34,052 bases of DNA from positions 1 to 34,052 of IMG/VR virus record IMGVR_UViG_3300031521_000223; one strand, written 5' to 3'. Positions 21,999-34,052 of the stretch are shown piece after piece. Both the position numbers and the translations under genes were made by a program. Each line of letters starts with the position of its first letter. Within the stretch, counting starts at the first letter, position 1. Under the pieces are notes generated by a model. The model searched no databases, was not told the origin of the DNA, and was given only the letters and a program-made list of their open reading frames with translations. This DNA comes from a virus.

Positions 21999-23894
21999 TT
22001 AAGATTCTGCTGGGAACTGTAGCAATACAAAACTGCTGTTCAAGATTGGTTTACCTGTGATGTCAATATCAGCACGAAGTGCAGATGCATCTTGAGTAAA
22101 CAAATTCAATGATCCAACAGTTGCTTCACGGCTAAACAAAGTAGCAAGTTGTCCACGAGTTACAAGGTCATAGTCTGCAAAGTTACCAATAACTACATCA
22201 CCGTCAGCTAAGACTTGTGAAATAACTACGTTAAATGTACCTAATGCACCAGCTGATACTTGTGTACCAACAATTGTGAATACAGGACGACCAAAGTTGT
22301 CAAGACTAGTAGCTAATTGACCCCAAGTTGAACGGTTTACTGCGATTGATATTTGGCCATCAGTTGCAACTAATCCGTAAGCTTGTCCAAGTGCAGGTAT
22401 AACGTCAATTGCGTCATAACTTGGAACAGATACAACACGACCAGCAGTAGTCAAGATAGGAACTAACCCAGTAGCAGGACGAGCTTCACCATTATAAGTA
22501 CCGCCAACGTAAGTTAAGATGATCTTATCTTCTAAGCGCATATATTCTTTAGCAATGTAAGCAACGATTGAGTTATATACAGCGATTGGTGAACGTTTTT
22601 GTACACCGTCTAACCATGCAACGATTAAAGCCCACTCGAATGGTTCAAATACGGCAGGTGTAAAGACTGGTTGATCTTCACTCTTAACAGCACCAATAGA
22701 TACAGGAGCGAATCCAGCACCACTAGTTTCGACTAATTGTCGGAATGTTTCAGCACCATCAATGTCAATCTTAGTTACTAAAGCTGCAACACCACCTAAT
22801 GCTTCGTACTTAATACGAATATCGGTTGCAAAAATTTCTGGTGCATACATTGGAGCGCCAGTAGTACCATCAATAACCATCTTTGCTAGTTCAGCATTAA
22901 TAGCTTCGACTTTGTTAGTATCTTTACTATAGATTGCTCCAAGTAAATCAACCATTTTAACTCGTGCTTCACGCTTTGTAGCAGTTGGAGTTAAATTAAC
23001 TGGTGCTTCTGGTTGTGAAGCAATTGGAACAATAGAAGCTAATGCGATAGCATCTTGTTTTTCTTTGTCGTTCATTTCTTTATCCTCTTCATTGACTGGG
23101 TTAATTTTAGCAGAGTCTTCAGTCTCTTCTTCATCTGCTAGTTCGACTATATCAGTCTTAGTTTTGTCTTCGACTACCTCTTCAGGTATTACTTCTTGAG
23201 TTTCCTCAATTGGTTCTGTCTTTTCGACAGGTTTTTCTGGTTCGGCTTCTTCTTTGGCGATATACTTTCCCAAAGAATCATGTATCGACATACTAAACGC
23301 AAAATTTTCAGTTGTAAACATTGATTTAATCTTTGCAAAAGCAGTAGGTTCATCACCTAAAATATTATCTGCAAAACCAAGTTCAACTGCTTTTTCTGGA
23401 GACATCCAAGTCTCTTCTTCTAGTAATGAAAATATTTCTTCTTTACTACGTTTTGTTCGCTTTTCATAGATAGGTATTATTGTATCCTCTATCTCTTTTA
23501 GCATATCTATAGCTTTACTAAGGTCTTTTATGTTTCCCTGTGCTAGTACGAGTGGTCTGTGAACCATCATAACTGAACCAGGAGACATTAAAATCTTATC
23601 TCCAGCCATAGCAATAACGCTAGCCATCGAAGCTGCTATTCCATCAACTCTTACAGTAACTTCACCATTGTAAGCCCGTAAAGCGTTATAAATTGCTGCA
23701 CCAGCAAAGACTTCACCACCTGGACTGTTTATGATAACAGTAATAGGTTTACCATTTGCTTGTTTAGATAGTTCATATCTCAGTTGGTCTGGGGTATATT
23801 CATCTCCCCAAAAACTTTCTGATGTTATGACTCCCTCTATAACAATCTCTGCGGATTTGCCATCGGTTGATTCCTGCATAAGCGGTTTAATCAT
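21999..23894 (-). CDS. Fused ClpP-like head maturation protease and HK97-fold major capsid protein, 631 aa
   Basis: Residues 1-190 are an S14/ClpP-type prohead protease: INSPGGEVFAGAAIYNALR, catalytic S89 in DGIAASMASVIAMAG and H112 in MMVHRPLVLAQG, then EETWMSPEKAVELGFAD, where E161 replaces the usual Asp-like position. Residues ~213-270 are a very acidic linker (EEAEPEKPVEKTEPIEETQE...) like a scaffold. Residues ~275-631 are the capsid domain (ATKREARVKMVDLLGAIYSK, APEIFATDIRIKYEALGGVA, TGKPILNSSFVLLQFPA). An internal ATG (codon 274, 23075-23073) has AAGAGG seven bases upstream, so the capsid may also be made separately. An extended -10 promoter lies at 23958-23966. Confidence 0.88.
   Translation of the reverse strand: MIKPLMQESTDGKSAEIVIEGVITSESFWGDEYTPDQLRYELSKQANGKPITVIINSPGGEVFAGAAIYNALRAYNGEVTVRVDGIAASMASVIAMAGDKILMSPGSVMMVHRPLVLAQGNIKDLSKAIDMLKEIEDTIIPIYEKRTKRSKEEIFSLLEEETWMSPEKAVELGFADNILGDEPTAFAKIKSMFTTENFAFSMSIHDSLGKYIAKEEAEPEKPVEKTEPIEETQEVIPEEVVEDKTKTDIVELADEEETEDSAKINPVNEEDKEMNDKEKQDAIALASIVPIASQPEAPVNLTPTATKREARVKMVDLLGAIYSKDTNKVEAINAELAKMVIDGTTGAPMYAPEIFATDIRIKYEALGGVAALVTKIDIDGAETFRQLVETSGAGFAPVSIGAVKSEDQPVFTPAVFEPFEWALIVAWLDGVQKRSPIAVYNSIVAYIAKEYMRLEDKIILTYVGGTYNGEARPATGLVPILTTAGRVVSVPSYDAIDVIPALGQAYGLVATDGQISIAVNRSTWGQLATSLDNFGRPVFTIVGTQVSAGALGTFNVVISQVLADGDVVIGNFADYDLVTRGQLATLFSREATVGSLNLFTQDASALRADIDITGKPILNSSFVLLQFPAES
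23073..23089 (-). promoter_or_regulatory. Internal ribosome binding site and start inside the protease-capsid gene
   Basis: AAGAGG (23089-23084) then ATAAAGAA and ATG (23075-23073) on the minus strand, in frame (M274). It would yield a ~358-residue product beginning MNDKEKQDAIALAS that covers the whole capsid domain without the protease. Confidence 0.6.
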
Positions 23895-23957
23895 AGCATT
23901 TCCTTTTTTAACTTTGATAATGTCTACGCCCTTAAAGAGCTTTTGTAGATTAAATAT

Positions 23958-23989: not shown

Positions 23990-24110
23990 GGTCTTGTGCG
24001 TCTCTAATGATGTCTAACAAGTCTTTAACGGTTAATCTATATCCAATATCAATATAATCATGATTTAATTTTTCAACTATTTCTTTTAAAATATCAGCCG
24101 TTAGTTTCAT
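23979..24110 (-). CDS. Small helical protein of unknown function, 43 aa
   Basis: MKLTADILKEIVEKLNHDYI... ending DIIRDAQDLDE at TAA 23979. Its ATG overlaps the portal stop (ATGA), a tight coupling that supports translation. Fully helical and acidic. Sitting between portal and capsid it may help prohead assembly; no family recognised. Confidence 0.65.
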   Translation of the reverse strand: MKLTADILKEIVEKLNHDYIDIGYRLTVKDLLDIIRDAQDLDE

Positions 24111-25513
24111 AACTCGACTACCACGTCATGCTTATCTGGTGATTTTATAAGTAATTTACCGTTACCAAGCTTTTTAGCTAAGAACCTACCTTTTTCTGAA
24201 TATATACCATCTGGGTCTTTTCCACTTTGTGCAATCTGTCTTGCTTGCTTATTACCAGTACCGTCCTCTGTGTCAGGAGATGCCTTAGTATCTCCCCCAT
24301 TATCAACATTGTCATCATCAACTGTTGCTTCTTCAAGTAATAAATAACTATCAGGTAGTTTAAGAGCTAATACTGCTTGTTTTAATGTATAACCCTGTGA
24401 TTTAAGAGTAGCAATATTAGCAAGATCAGCAGTTTGCTTTTGAGAAATAGTCAATTGTTCTTCAGCAACTTGTGGAAACTCATAATCAAATGTAATGACA
24501 ATACCAGTACCACCAGTAATTCGATTAAGTTCATGGCTAAATCTATCCCATAGTTTCATAATAAATGGATATACTACATATTTAGTAAATATAATCTCAT
24601 CTGCTTGTACAGATGCATAAGTATTAGAGTCATTTACGCCACGAATTGATGCAGGAACGCCATATGATGAATCAATCTTTTTATTGATCTGATTAAATAA
24701 ATCTTTAAGTGATAAATCTTTATTGCCTACATTAAATGGAATCCAAGTAATTTGTGATACAGTCGTTGGCTTACCTGTAGTTGGGTCGATTGGTGTATGA
24801 GAATACATAACATTATTGTTATTCTTAGCGCCTCGTTGTGCCGCTTGCATCTTGTCCTTTATATCTTCATATTCTTTAGGAGTTGGAGCAACAATTAAAA
24901 ACATGCCAGCAGGTACAGCGCCATTTTTAAAGAAACCTGTTTGATAGTCTGCTAAATAATCGTCAAGATTAGTCCATCGTTTAGCAGACTGTGATGCAGA
25001 AAAACCTTTAGATAAGTTATAAGGATTAATGCCCTTTAACTCGATTACTTCCTTAGGTGTATACTGAGAACCACAATATTGGTAAGTGACTGTGCCGTCT
25101 TGAACCATTTTTACTACACCCTCAAGGAATGTAAAACCAGATAAGTTATTAGAAGTTATTTTACCACCAGGAAAACTTGTTACACCCTCTCTATGCCATG
25201 CCAAAACATAGACTTCAGGGTGAACTAATGTCATTACAGCTAAGGCTTCACGAAATTCTGCACCACTCATGCCTTGATTTGGGTGTTCTAACCTAGTAAT
25301 TATATTACTTGCAACACGTTTACCAGTCTCATCTTTGGCGTATGGCATGGTAACTGCAACTTGATCGGCTATCTTTGTAATCGAAGGGAAAGCATTTTCA
25401 TACTGATTATCTTTAAAATGTTCATAAGAGTCTAGCCCATGCCAACCAGCTAGGTCTACAAGGCTTAATGATTGAGCTATTGGCTTTCGTTTGAACAGAT
25501 TAAATGGGTGCAT
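24107..25513 (-). CDS. Portal protein (HK97-like), 468 aa
   Basis: N-terminus MHPFNLFKRKPIAQSLSL followed by YENAFPSITKIADQVAVTMP, matching the clip/wing region of HK97-type portals; RLEHPNQGMSGAEFREALAV and EVYVLAWHREG are the standard continuation. LKDLFNQINKKIDSSYGVPA-SIRG and DEIIFTKYVVYPFIMKLWDR correspond to the stem and crown helices. The last ~70 residues (EDGTGNKQARQIAQSGKDPD ... KSPDKHDVVVEL) form a polar tail with a VVVEL end not typical of all portals. Located after terminase, before the capsid; it is the twelve-fold channel for DNA entry. Confidence 0.9.
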   Translation of the reverse strand: MHPFNLFKRKPIAQSLSLVDLAGWHGLDSYEHFKDNQYENAFPSITKIADQVAVTMPYAKDETGKRVASNIITRLEHPNQGMSGAEFREALAVMTLVHPEVYVLAWHREGVTSFPGGKITSNNLSGFTFLEGVVKMVQDGTVTYQYCGSQYTPKEVIELKGINPYNLSKGFSASQSAKRWTNLDDYLADYQTGFFKNGAVPAGMFLIVAPTPKEYEDIKDKMQAAQRGAKNNNNVMYSHTPIDPTTGKPTTVSQITWIPFNVGNKDLSLKDLFNQINKKIDSSYGVPASIRGVNDSNTYASVQADEIIFTKYVVYPFIMKLWDRFSHELNRITGGTGIVITFDYEFPQVAEEQLTISQKQTADLANIATLKSQGYTLKQAVLALKLPDSYLLLEEATVDDDNVDNGGDTKASPDTEDGTGNKQARQIAQSGKDPDGIYSEKGRFLAKKLGNGKLLIKSPDKHDVVVEL

Positions 25514-25566: not shown

Positions 25567-26832
25567 TTAAACTGAAGAACCCCACTCAATCTTGTAGATT
25601 TGTGGAGTATAAAAACAAAGTATCGTAGCATCGGCTTTATCAGGGCTTCTGTAGCCTCGTTTTTTGTAGTTGTCTTTACTCTCAACGCCACGCTTTCCCT
25701 TACTATCCATAGCCCATTGTCTATTCGATAGCTCCGAGAGTAAGTCTTTATCACTGCAAATAGATATCTGGTCAATTATTTTCTGCATATAAAACCATGC
25801 TTCACTAATTAAATTAGGATATTTATCTGAATCACTAGCTTTAGAACCAAAGTTTATAGCCATAACATTATAACCACGTTTAAGCATTTCATCTGTTACA
25901 CCACCACCTACACCAGTATCATCAATCTTAATCAGTACTTCCTTATCAAAATCAACGAATATTTCTAGCTCATCACATACTTCAGTTGTCCTAAGTTTAC
26001 TAAATGTCTTACGTGCAATTTCTTTTAGTCCTTTACGCTTAACAAACTCTGTACGGTCATTACCCATGCGAGCGATATCAGCCCCAACCTCAACAGATCC
26101 GTCATCTTCGACTTCTCTATTCATTGCTTCTAAAACCTTTGATACTGATAGAATACTTTTATCCGATTGATTCATCGCTTTGCCTAAATAATCGTGCGCA
26201 TAGTCTTCTGGGTGATGTATTCGTGAGTATTCTATTTCTTTGTGCATCTCATCAGATAGCCAACCGTAACTTTCAGCCATTCTATAATCAACCTGTAAAT
26301 GCCATACGTCATCTCTAGGTGGGTCGGTAATAAAATAAGATATCACAGGGTCTAAGTCTGTTAATCTATTAAGCGTCCATATCAACTGTGATCCATGTTT
26401 ACGAACTGTAGGCACTAGAACTCTAATAGACTTAATTGTTATTGCCTGTGCTTCGTCTACCCACGCTAGGTCTACACCCTCTAAAGATTTTATAGTGCTT
26501 TCAACATTACGGTCTAACCCTTTGAATATAATATTAGAACCATTATCGTGTTTTATTTCGTTATTGGTAACAGTAAAGCCAGTAAACCCATATTTACCTA
26601 TAAGGTCAGTTAGTAATTGATGCGAGCTATCCTCGATATTTTTCTGGAATTGTCGCAAACAAGCGACCCTATATTTACCAGCCATCATTCTTAGCAAAAT
26701 AATTCTAGCGATAGTATGAGATTTTAACGAATAGCGTCCACCCTCAATAACAGCATGCCTCCACCAAGTTTCATTAATCTCTGAAAATTCAGTGAGCGGT
26801 AGCTCTACTTTTATTTTTTCTTCGTCGCCCAT
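25567..26832 (-). CDS. terL: Terminase large subunit, 421 aa
   Basis: ATPase: Walker A variant GGRYSLKS (residues 31-38) and Walker B LAWVDEAQ (D126, catalytic E127), followed by the WTLNRLTDLDPV coupling region. Nuclease: D252 in VGADIARMGND, D304/D305 in IKIDDTGVGGGV, and D401 in DKADATILCF, the RNase H-like triad. YNVMAINFGSKASDSDKYPN is conserved in PBSX/Terminase_3-like proteins. It cuts and packages concatemeric DNA into proheads via the portal. It starts inside the last codons of the small subunit gene. Length is normal. Confidence 0.95.
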   Translation of the reverse strand: MGDEEKIKVELPLTEFSEINETWWRHAVIEGGRYSLKSHTIARIILLRMMAGKYRVACLRQFQKNIEDSSHQLLTDLIGKYGFTGFTVTNNEIKHDNGSNIIFKGLDRNVESTIKSLEGVDLAWVDEAQAITIKSIRVLVPTVRKHGSQLIWTLNRLTDLDPVISYFITDPPRDDVWHLQVDYRMAESYGWLSDEMHKEIEYSRIHHPEDYAHDYLGKAMNQSDKSILSVSKVLEAMNREVEDDGSVEVGADIARMGNDRTEFVKRKGLKEIARKTFSKLRTTEVCDELEIFVDFDKEVLIKIDDTGVGGGVTDEMLKRGYNVMAINFGSKASDSDKYPNLISEAWFYMQKIIDQISICSDKDLLSELSNRQWAMDSKGKRGVESKDNYKKRGYRSPDKADATILCFYTPQIYKIEWGSSV

Positions 26833-32507: not shown

Positions 32508-32845
32508 TTGCTCCACCCCACTTTTATTACATTAACTGGTGCATTTTCGAATAATGGTTCAATTTCTTCTCTAGAATATCCCGCAATTCCTTGACCTATA
32601 GGGGTTAATAGAAATGTAAACTCTGGTAATAAAAATGCTACACGTTTGAATTGTTCTACATAGCGCTTAATTTGTTCTATACCGCCCATAGTTGGTATTG
32701 CATAAGATTGTCCTTGTAGACCCGAACCAACTCCCCAGACTGCACCAAACTGTTCTACGGCTTGTTTAGCGGCACCACCTGCATGTATTCCCCCTAGGTT
32801 AGAACCAAATACAAATATCTGATTTGTTTTTAAATTATCAATCAT
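32504..32845 (-). CDS. Macro-domain-like protein (A1S_2505-type), 113 aa
   Basis: Signature NQIFVFGSNLGGIHAGGAAK-QAVEQFGA and SYAIPTMGG, then FLLTPIGQGIAGYSREEIEP-LF, matching the phage-associated macro-like family (FVFGSN-x-x-G-x-H-x-G-GAA). Such folds bind or process ADP-ribose derivatives; the phage role is unknown, possibly defence against NAD-based immunity. It overlaps the alanine-repeat gene (ATGA) and the winged-helix-like gene. Confidence 0.82.
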   Translation of the reverse strand: MIDNLKTNQIFVFGSNLGGIHAGGAAKQAVEQFGAVWGVGSGLQGQSYAIPTMGGIEQIKRYVEQFKRVAFLLPEFTFLLTPIGQGIAGYSREEIEPLFENAPVNVIKVGWSK

Positions 32846-33525
32846 TTTATCTCTTCCATAACTTCAGTACGTCTTAAAACCCATTTATGAACTCTAATCT
32901 TAACTTTTAATAATGCTGCTGCGTCTGCGTCTGCTGCGTATGCTGCGTGTGCTGCTGCGTGTGCTGCGTATGCTGCGTGTGCTGCGTATGCTGCGTATGC
33001 TGCGTCTGCTGCGTGTGCTGCTGCGTATGCTGCGTATGCTGCGTATGCTGCGTATGCTGCGTCTGCTGCGTGTGCTGCTGCATATGCTGCGTATGCTGCG
33101 TATGCTGCGTCTGCATTTTCTTTAGTTTGATTTTTTAAATATTTATTAGCTGATTGAATAGCTAATCGTGGCCGTCTGTCGCCTGGATATTTATCTTCAA
33201 ATATTTTAATAACTAAGTTAGCTGAAAAAATTGCTAAAGCAACACTATCATTTTTTGTCCATTTGTAGGCTTTTATAATAGTCATATTTCTAGATGCGAA
33301 CTTATCATCGTCTACTACTAAATCACTAGCTTTAACTATTGCGAAAACATCACCTTTGACATACGACAATGCGTCAATAGATAGCATTGATGCGTGAAAA
33401 CCGTTATTACATAGTTCTATAATGCCTTTAACTGAATATTCTTTGCCGATTTCCCAAGTTTGATTACCATGTTCTGATTTTATTTTTCCATTTTTTAAAT
33501 TTAGAAACTTATAAGCTGTAATCAT
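32842..33525 (-). CDS. Alanine-repeat protein with DUF7666-like N-terminus, 227 aa
   Basis: N-terminal ~75 residues (AYKFLNLKNGKIKSEHGNQT ... IIELCNNGFHASMLSIDALS) resemble DUF7666-like domains, with the C-x-NGFHAS core. Then a region to ~135 is followed by ~67 residues of AAYAAYAAHAAD-type repeats (codons GCA-TAC/CAC/GAC-GCA), which should form a long alanine helix. The end is basic (ALLKVKIRVHKWVLRRTEVM). It follows the pentapeptide gene via TAATG. Both neighbours carry a CxNG(F/I)H motif followed or preceded by low-complexity repeats, suggesting paired function. Confidence 0.78.
   Translation of the reverse strand: MITAYKFLNLKNGKIKSEHGNQTWEIGKEYSVKGIIELCNNGFHASMLSIDALSYVKGDVFAIVKASDLVVDDDKFASRNMTIIKAYKWTKNDSVALAIFSANLVIKIFEDKYPGDRRPRLAIQSANKYLKNQTKENADAAYAAYAAYAAAHAADAAYAAYAAYAAYAAAHAADAAYAAYAAHAAYAAHAAAHAAYAADADAAALLKVKIRVHKWVLRRTEVMEEIK
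32916..33120. repeat. Alanine-codon tandem repeat
   Basis: Repeated GCAxACGCA units (9-12 bp) on the minus strand encoding AAYAAHAAD. Low complexity; the other frames look open and produce spurious Cys-, Leu- and Gln-rich frames. Confidence 0.9.
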
Positions 33526-34052
33526 TAGTAATTTTCTGCTTCCAATTTCGTTATGAAAAAGTGAATACCGTTAGAGCATTCATCAGTCCAATTTTTATCG
33601 AAACTATCTGGAGTTACTCTTTCGCCAACTTTATATTTAAAATCTCTATCATTTTGACTAATTGCTGTTTTATAACTTTTGCCGTTTTTAGTTATTTCTA
33701 ATACATCAGCATATTCAGCACGGCACTTACGTCCAAAGGCATGTGATCTTTTAGCTTCCGCTGGTATAGATAGTTTAACAATTTTATCGTCTGAGCATTT
33801 TTTGTAACCAATAATATTTCCCTCTGGTAATATACGAGTCATAGCTATCGCATAATCGGCATCTTTTGCACCTCGTAGGTCTGCACCTTGTAGGTATGCA
33901 CCTTGTAGGTATGCACCTTGTAGGTATGCACCTTGTAGGTATGCACCTTGTAGGTATGCACATCGTAGGTCTGCACCTTGTAGGTTTGCACCTCGTAGGT
34001 TTGCATCTTGTAGGTCTGCACCTTGTAGGTCTGCACCTTGTAGGTATGCATC
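33525..34052 (-). CDS. Pentapeptide-repeat protein, C-terminal part (joined to 1-399)
   Basis: Frame open from the right end: ...ADLRGAKDADYAIAMTRILP... to TAA 33525. From about residue 165 of the joined protein, ILPEGNIIGYKKCSDDKIVK, IPAEAKRSHAFGRKCRAEYA and SNGIHFFITKLEAENY match the DUF5758-like C-terminal domain found after pentapeptide repeats in phages. Bases 33930-34052 duplicate 1-123; after removing them the frame at 33929 continues exactly from position 1. The joined product has 267 residues: leader, beta-helix of ~30 pentapeptides, and this domain. The stop overlaps the start of the alanine-repeat gene (TAATG). Confidence 0.88.
   Translation of the reverse strand, partial: DAYLQGADLQGADLQDANLRGANLQGADLRCAYLQGAYLQGAYLQGAYLQGAYLQGADLRGAKDADYAIAMTRILPEGNIIGYKKCSDDKIVKLSIPAEAKRSHAFGRKCRAEYADVLEITKNGKSYKTAISQNDRDFKYKVGERVTPDSFDKNWTDECSNGIHFFITKLEAENY
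33870..34052 (-). repeat. 15-bp pentapeptide repeat array (right part) with right terminal repeat
   Basis: About twelve 15-bp units as at the left end; 33930-34052 is the right copy of the 123-bp terminal overlap. Non-overlapping units total roughly 23 across the join. Confidence 0.9.

Follow-up and report, generated by a model that had tools for sequence, protein, structure and literature searches.

A fused protease–capsid gene with a conserved, probable internal capsid start in a phage contig

The DNA considered here is a stretch of 34,052 nucleotides that comprises positions 1 to 34,052 of IMG/VR virus record IMGVR_UViG_3300031521_000223 (below referred to as the window). In this stretch a head maturation protease and the capsid protein are encoded in one open reading frame (ORF). 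If translated from a single start, such a fusion would deliver protease and capsid at a ratio of 1:1, which poses a dosage problem in view of the roughly 60–90 proteases found per prohead in studied phages; the HK97 prohead contains 415 copies of the major capsid protein (MCP) and about 60 proteases, and that of D3 about 90 proteases (PMC12749128). The question is then how one gene could yield a shell and only a limited number of proteases. The reading that we favour, with a probability of about 0.8, is that this head gene harbors two in-frame starts, giving a 631-residue protease carrier and a 358-residue capsid protein, which would co-assemble before cleavage by the protease.

Organization of the fused gene

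The fusion ORF (21999..23894, minus strand) reads from an ATG start codon at 23894 to position 21999 and encodes 631 residues, as assigned from the reading frame and from family profiles. Its start is preceded, at a distance of 5 nt, by the Shine–Dalgarno (SD) motif AAAGGAA (23900..23906, minus). Upstream are found the genes of the portal protein (24107..25513, minus) and of the large terminase subunit (25567..26832, minus), the latter of which served to find relatives. Elsewhere in the window, a 15-bp tandem repeat (in the ACCTTGTAGGTATGC register) makes up both ends (1-292 and 33867-34050), a pattern suggestive of a genome, circular or with terminal repeats, that was broken within a repeat array, and a 9-bp/57-bp tandem repeat (32925-33114) encodes an Ala/Tyr-rich stretch of the ORF at 32842-33525.

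Residues 15-178 (23361..23852, minus) match the model NF045542, i.e., “head maturation protease, ClpP-related”, with 189.5 bits (cut-off 120), and the protease part also matches PF00574. Residues S89, H112 and D176 align with the catalytic triad of a solved ClpP and are invariant in 12 relatives. By profile and triad the domain is thus a ClpP-related head maturation protease, and cleavage of head proteins is predicted. At the other end of the chain, residues 351-627 (22014..22844, minus) match PF05065 (Phage_capsid; 60.9 bits, cut-off 24.2), residues 242-627 match TIGR01554 (69.0 bits, cut-off 27.5), and a profile built from relatives matches the solved capsids 8eci (E=2e-5) and 8eco (E=3e-5); the capsid part was modelled poorly by AlphaFold (mean pLDDT about 45). 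The initial annotation had placed a protease and an HK97-fold capsid protein in one 631-residue chain, joined by an acidic linker of about 60 residues, and both statements are borne out by these matches and by the composition of the linker (about residues 212-273; 23076..23261, minus), where the 62 residues that precede M274 include 25 Asp or Glu and 7 Lys or Arg. Between M274 and the capsid core there are about 75 residues (274-350) that constitute the capsid protein's own N-terminal extension, where the AlphaFold confidence is too low to reveal an HK97-type helical delta (scaffold) domain.

Because overlapping or abutting protease and capsid genes are common in relatives, a fusion of this kind might reflect a sequencing or assembly error that joined two such genes. 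The frame is, however, open throughout, the other two frames carry stops in the linker, and the fusion is present in dozens of independent contigs, which rules out an error for practical purposes.

A probable start codon at the linker–capsid junction

As the initial annotation had pointed out, codon 274 is an in-frame ATG (23073..23075, minus) with a well-placed SD; the sequence reads GAAGAGG-ATAAAGAA-ATG, in which AGAGGA (23083..23088, minus) is located 7 nt from the start codon and has an energy of −5.8 kcal/mol. Initiation at this codon would yield a free capsid protein of 358 residues (21999..23075, minus). Of the 33 gene starts assigned to the window, about half have a weaker SD, and an SD of this strength is found at just 5 of 140 other in-frame ATGs inside these genes. 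The site also lies in the least structured stretch of the gene's mRNA, a property that is explained by amino-acid composition and carries little weight as evidence for a start.

A motif of this kind may arise for a different reason. SD-like words are to be expected in acidic linkers, given that these are built from GAA, GAG and AAG codons, and the amino-acid sequence by itself yields a mean of −4.4 kcal/mol at the junction site. The gene could then produce the full-length chain only, where each capsid subunit brings its own protease and self-cleavage frees the capsid, the SD-like word being a by-product of the codons used. Consistent with this alternative, a test of synonymous codons in the window alone is not significant (p=0.34), and the published description of Pseudomonas phage MD8, in the sections consulted, presents a single protease-scaffold-MCP gene and mentions no second start (PMC8508860). 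It is at odds with the proheads of HK97 and D3, in which proteases are far fewer than capsid subunits (PMC12749128). A comparison across related genes bears on it more directly.

The comparison covered 24 fusion genes that encode either ClpP or S78 proteases (an earlier set comprised 20 clusters). An in-frame start is found where the linker ends in all 24, with an SD of −5.3 kcal/mol or below in 22 of them, a value that is reached at about 9% of other internal ATGs. In nearly all fusions the junction codon is ATG (GTG in L010) and is preceded by a purine-rich SD 5–10 nt upstream. The junction codons were first chosen by eye with the SDs in view; a rule based only on amino-acid composition selects the same codon in 20–22 of 25 genes, after a penalty had been raised because the first version agreed in just 9 of 26.

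As a null model, the synonymous codons of each gene were shuffled among themselves (1000 runs). The mean SD energy at the junction start is −6.46 kcal/mol, as compared to −4.36 kcal/mol in the shuffles, none of which reaches the observed value, where clusters below 70% identity were counted as independent and no phylogenetic correction was applied. An SD of −5.3 kcal/mol or below is retained in the shuffled set in on average 11.4 of the 24 genes, with a maximum of 19. For 296 other internal ATGs in this gene set, SD strength falls below that of the shuffled sequences (−1.71 vs −1.96 kcal/mol). Furthermore, Lys residues that precede Glu or Asp are encoded by AAG in 14 of 17 cases at the junction and in 30 of 119 elsewhere (p=1.3e-6). 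The synonymous-codon signal rests on these pooled statistics; no single gene is significant by itself, and combining the per-gene p-values by Fisher's method gives no significance either (0.21). Among the genes, L011, which belongs to the window's capsid family, has a poor junction SD (−1.5 kcal/mol) and L088 a moderate one (−3.4 kcal/mol).

At the protein level, an alignment of 12 ClpP-type fusions has no invariant column between D176 and A292 other than M274, and within the window's capsid family M1 alone is invariant among the first 46 residues. The product counted from the junction ATG is 354–375 residues long in most genes despite varying linkers, and its second residue is T, S, E, D or N. 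The capsid length of L043 was left out because its ORF runs into a joined porin-like sequence after about residue 415, which is a contig artefact.

Production of only the full-length chain accounts for the insignificant per-gene tests and for the poor SD of L011. It leaves the pooled excess of strong SDs and of AAG at the junction, their weakness at other ATGs of the same genes and the invariance of M274 within a variable region without explanation, and we regard it as unlikely. The comparison gives good support to the start at codon 274; both the choice of synonymous codons and the conservation of the site with two unrelated kinds of protease speak for selection on it. The gene thus appears to contain a nested in-frame start with an SD under selection, as in the lambda C/Nu3 type of arrangement.

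Relatives and exchange of proteases

Single-sequence scans with the fusion or with its capsid part found no relatives. These were obtained via a search with the terminase, followed by searches with protease alignments, which together recovered about 45 fusion ORFs. The window's capsid is rare; no capsid relative was found in genome contigs in a scan with the capsid alignment, nor in 379 genomes of the phylum of the Saccharibacteria MAG. What looks like a protease stop in L019 is an artefact of an inverted-repeat end (at the 3' contig end). In L013 (3910-6198) an intein-like insertion splits the large terminase subunit after about residue 309, and the terminase matches to L043-L045 end at about the same residue.

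The fusions harbor two kinds of protease, the ClpP type and an unrelated type that matches PF04586 (Peptidase_S78). The window's capsid family follows a ClpP protease in L088 and L089, and an S78 protease in L011 and L170. The capsid parts of the window and L170 are 49% identical, while their proteases (ClpP and S78, respectively) are without significant similarity. Conversely, the proteases of the window and L091 are 57% identical and the capsids give no BLAST match. The same capsid family behind both protease kinds, together with the mismatch in L091, indicates that proteases and capsids have been exchanged; as judged from these alignments, the border of the exchange is in or near the linker. 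Both L170 and L091 retain the linker, the SD and the ATG, and the start would mark the border where capsids exchanged unrelated proteases. The same pattern of exchange is seen in the profile matches of the curated fusion families NF045540 and NF045541, where L143 matches the former over its full length and the latter over the scaffold-capsid part only.

Where relatives encode the two proteins separately, the capsid gene begins at most 60 bp from the protease stop and has its own SD in 41 of 52 cases. Because most of the separate pairs lie this close, the fusions look like protease and capsid gene pairs that came to share one frame while the capsid start was retained.

The S78-type fusions show a further start, at the border between protease and linker. 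Its SD is −5.3 kcal/mol or below in 11 of the 12 non-redundant genes with a candidate (pooled p=0.003), and three further S78-type fusions are without any candidate at this border. Examples of this second SD and ATG or GTG (AAAGGAG, mostly at 4 nt) are found at residue 181 in L015, 201 in L170, 173 in L177 and 175 in L182 (stop-to-stop numbering). Such a start would add a third nested product, composed of linker and capsid. A second SD and start at the protease/linker border is absent from the window's fusion gene.

Predicted products and comparison with known systems

In the proposed mechanism, ribosomes that start at 23894 would produce the 631-residue protease-linker-capsid chain as the minority product, and those that start at 23075, at codon 274 with its own SD, the 358-residue capsid protein as the majority product, 3'-coterminal with the long chain. 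Through its capsid part, the long chain would co-assemble with free capsid protein such that a limited number of proteases enters the prohead, after which the protease would trim itself, the linker and probably the capsid's N-terminal extension. The initial annotation had suggested that free capsid protein could be made from the same message. Selection on the start and its conservation across two protease types make this product likely, and it is reasonable to infer that use of the two starts determines the protease:capsid ratio. A conserved internal start would be a simple solution to the dosage problem, as a single message would then yield shell protein in large excess over protease.

The further proposal that the acidic segment acts as a scaffold, carried only on the protease-linked minority chains, found no support in the tests. 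The position of the linker matches that of the scaffold segment inferred for the Gifsy-2-type and MD8 genes, and its acidic character is conserved. Its length and sequence are, however, strongly variable, its AlphaFold confidence is very low (pLDDT about 25–30), and scaffolds are described as predicted α-helical proteins that form coiled coils (PMC10275583). Moreover, the free capsid protein would retain its own N-terminal extension, which could just as well be the remnant of a scaffold. A scaffold role of the linker is therefore doubtful; the segment looks like a tether.

Fusion of protease and capsid as such is already known, from Gifsy-2, MD8 and the families NF045540/NF045541. In the literature searched, which the main Gifsy-2 paper (2010; doi 10.1016/j.virol.2010.03.041) lies outside, there is no description of a conserved capsid-only internal start that is kept across protease exchange. 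As in the window, Gifsy-2 and MD8 gp5 (described as a single protease-scaffold-MCP gene; PMC8508860) combine a ClpP-like protease, a middle segment and an HK97-fold capsid in one ORF, and we found in them an in-frame SD and ATG between protease and capsid. This conserved start after the protease is found at codon 221 in Gifsy-2 (L205), at codon 220 in MD8 (L207) and in 11 relatives, among them mEp213, where it is predicted at codon 211. A K/R-x-x-E-F-x-x-M-P-like site directly follows the protease in Gifsy-2, MD8, mEp213, Fels-1 and nine relatives, with an SD of −5.3 kcal/mol or below in 13 of 13 genes (shuffle mean 5.6, p=0.001). The start would be parallel to that of the window at a different site, i.e., directly after the protease, with a predicted middle-capsid chain of 444–487 residues, whereas the window's start is found after the linker and would give the capsid alone. 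It is somewhat more likely than not that internal starts are a general, selected trait of single-gene protease-capsid fusions, including Gifsy-2 and MD8, which is found at module borders, permits exchange of proteases and sets their dose, with a third nested product in many S78-type relatives. The dosage idea becomes testable in Gifsy-2, mEp213 or MD8, and both annotation and virion proteomics should seek capsid N-termini inside fusion genes.

The families NF045540 and NF045541 share the domain order of the window's gene, and as a pair they represent two kinds of protease joined to one scaffold-capsid part. The alignment of the window's chain with NF045540 is confined to the protease half (residues 34-272) and scores 186 bits, compared to a cut-off of 475 for the full-length model, and the window is thus regarded as analogous rather than as a member.

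In phage lambda, the head protease gene C contains a nested in-frame start from which the 3'-coterminal product Nu3 is made. The window's gene shares this design, its nested product being predicted. The lambda case is that of Shaw & Murialdo 1980, as cited in PMC8508860. Lambda makes its scaffold in this way and has a separate gene for the capsid protein E, while in the window the nested product would be the capsid protein itself. In HK97, the protease (gp4) adjoins the capsid protein (gp5), whose fold is the one predicted by profile for the capsid part of the window's gene; in contrast to the single fused gene described here, HK97 employs two genes, and its gp5 carries a 102-residue delta domain.
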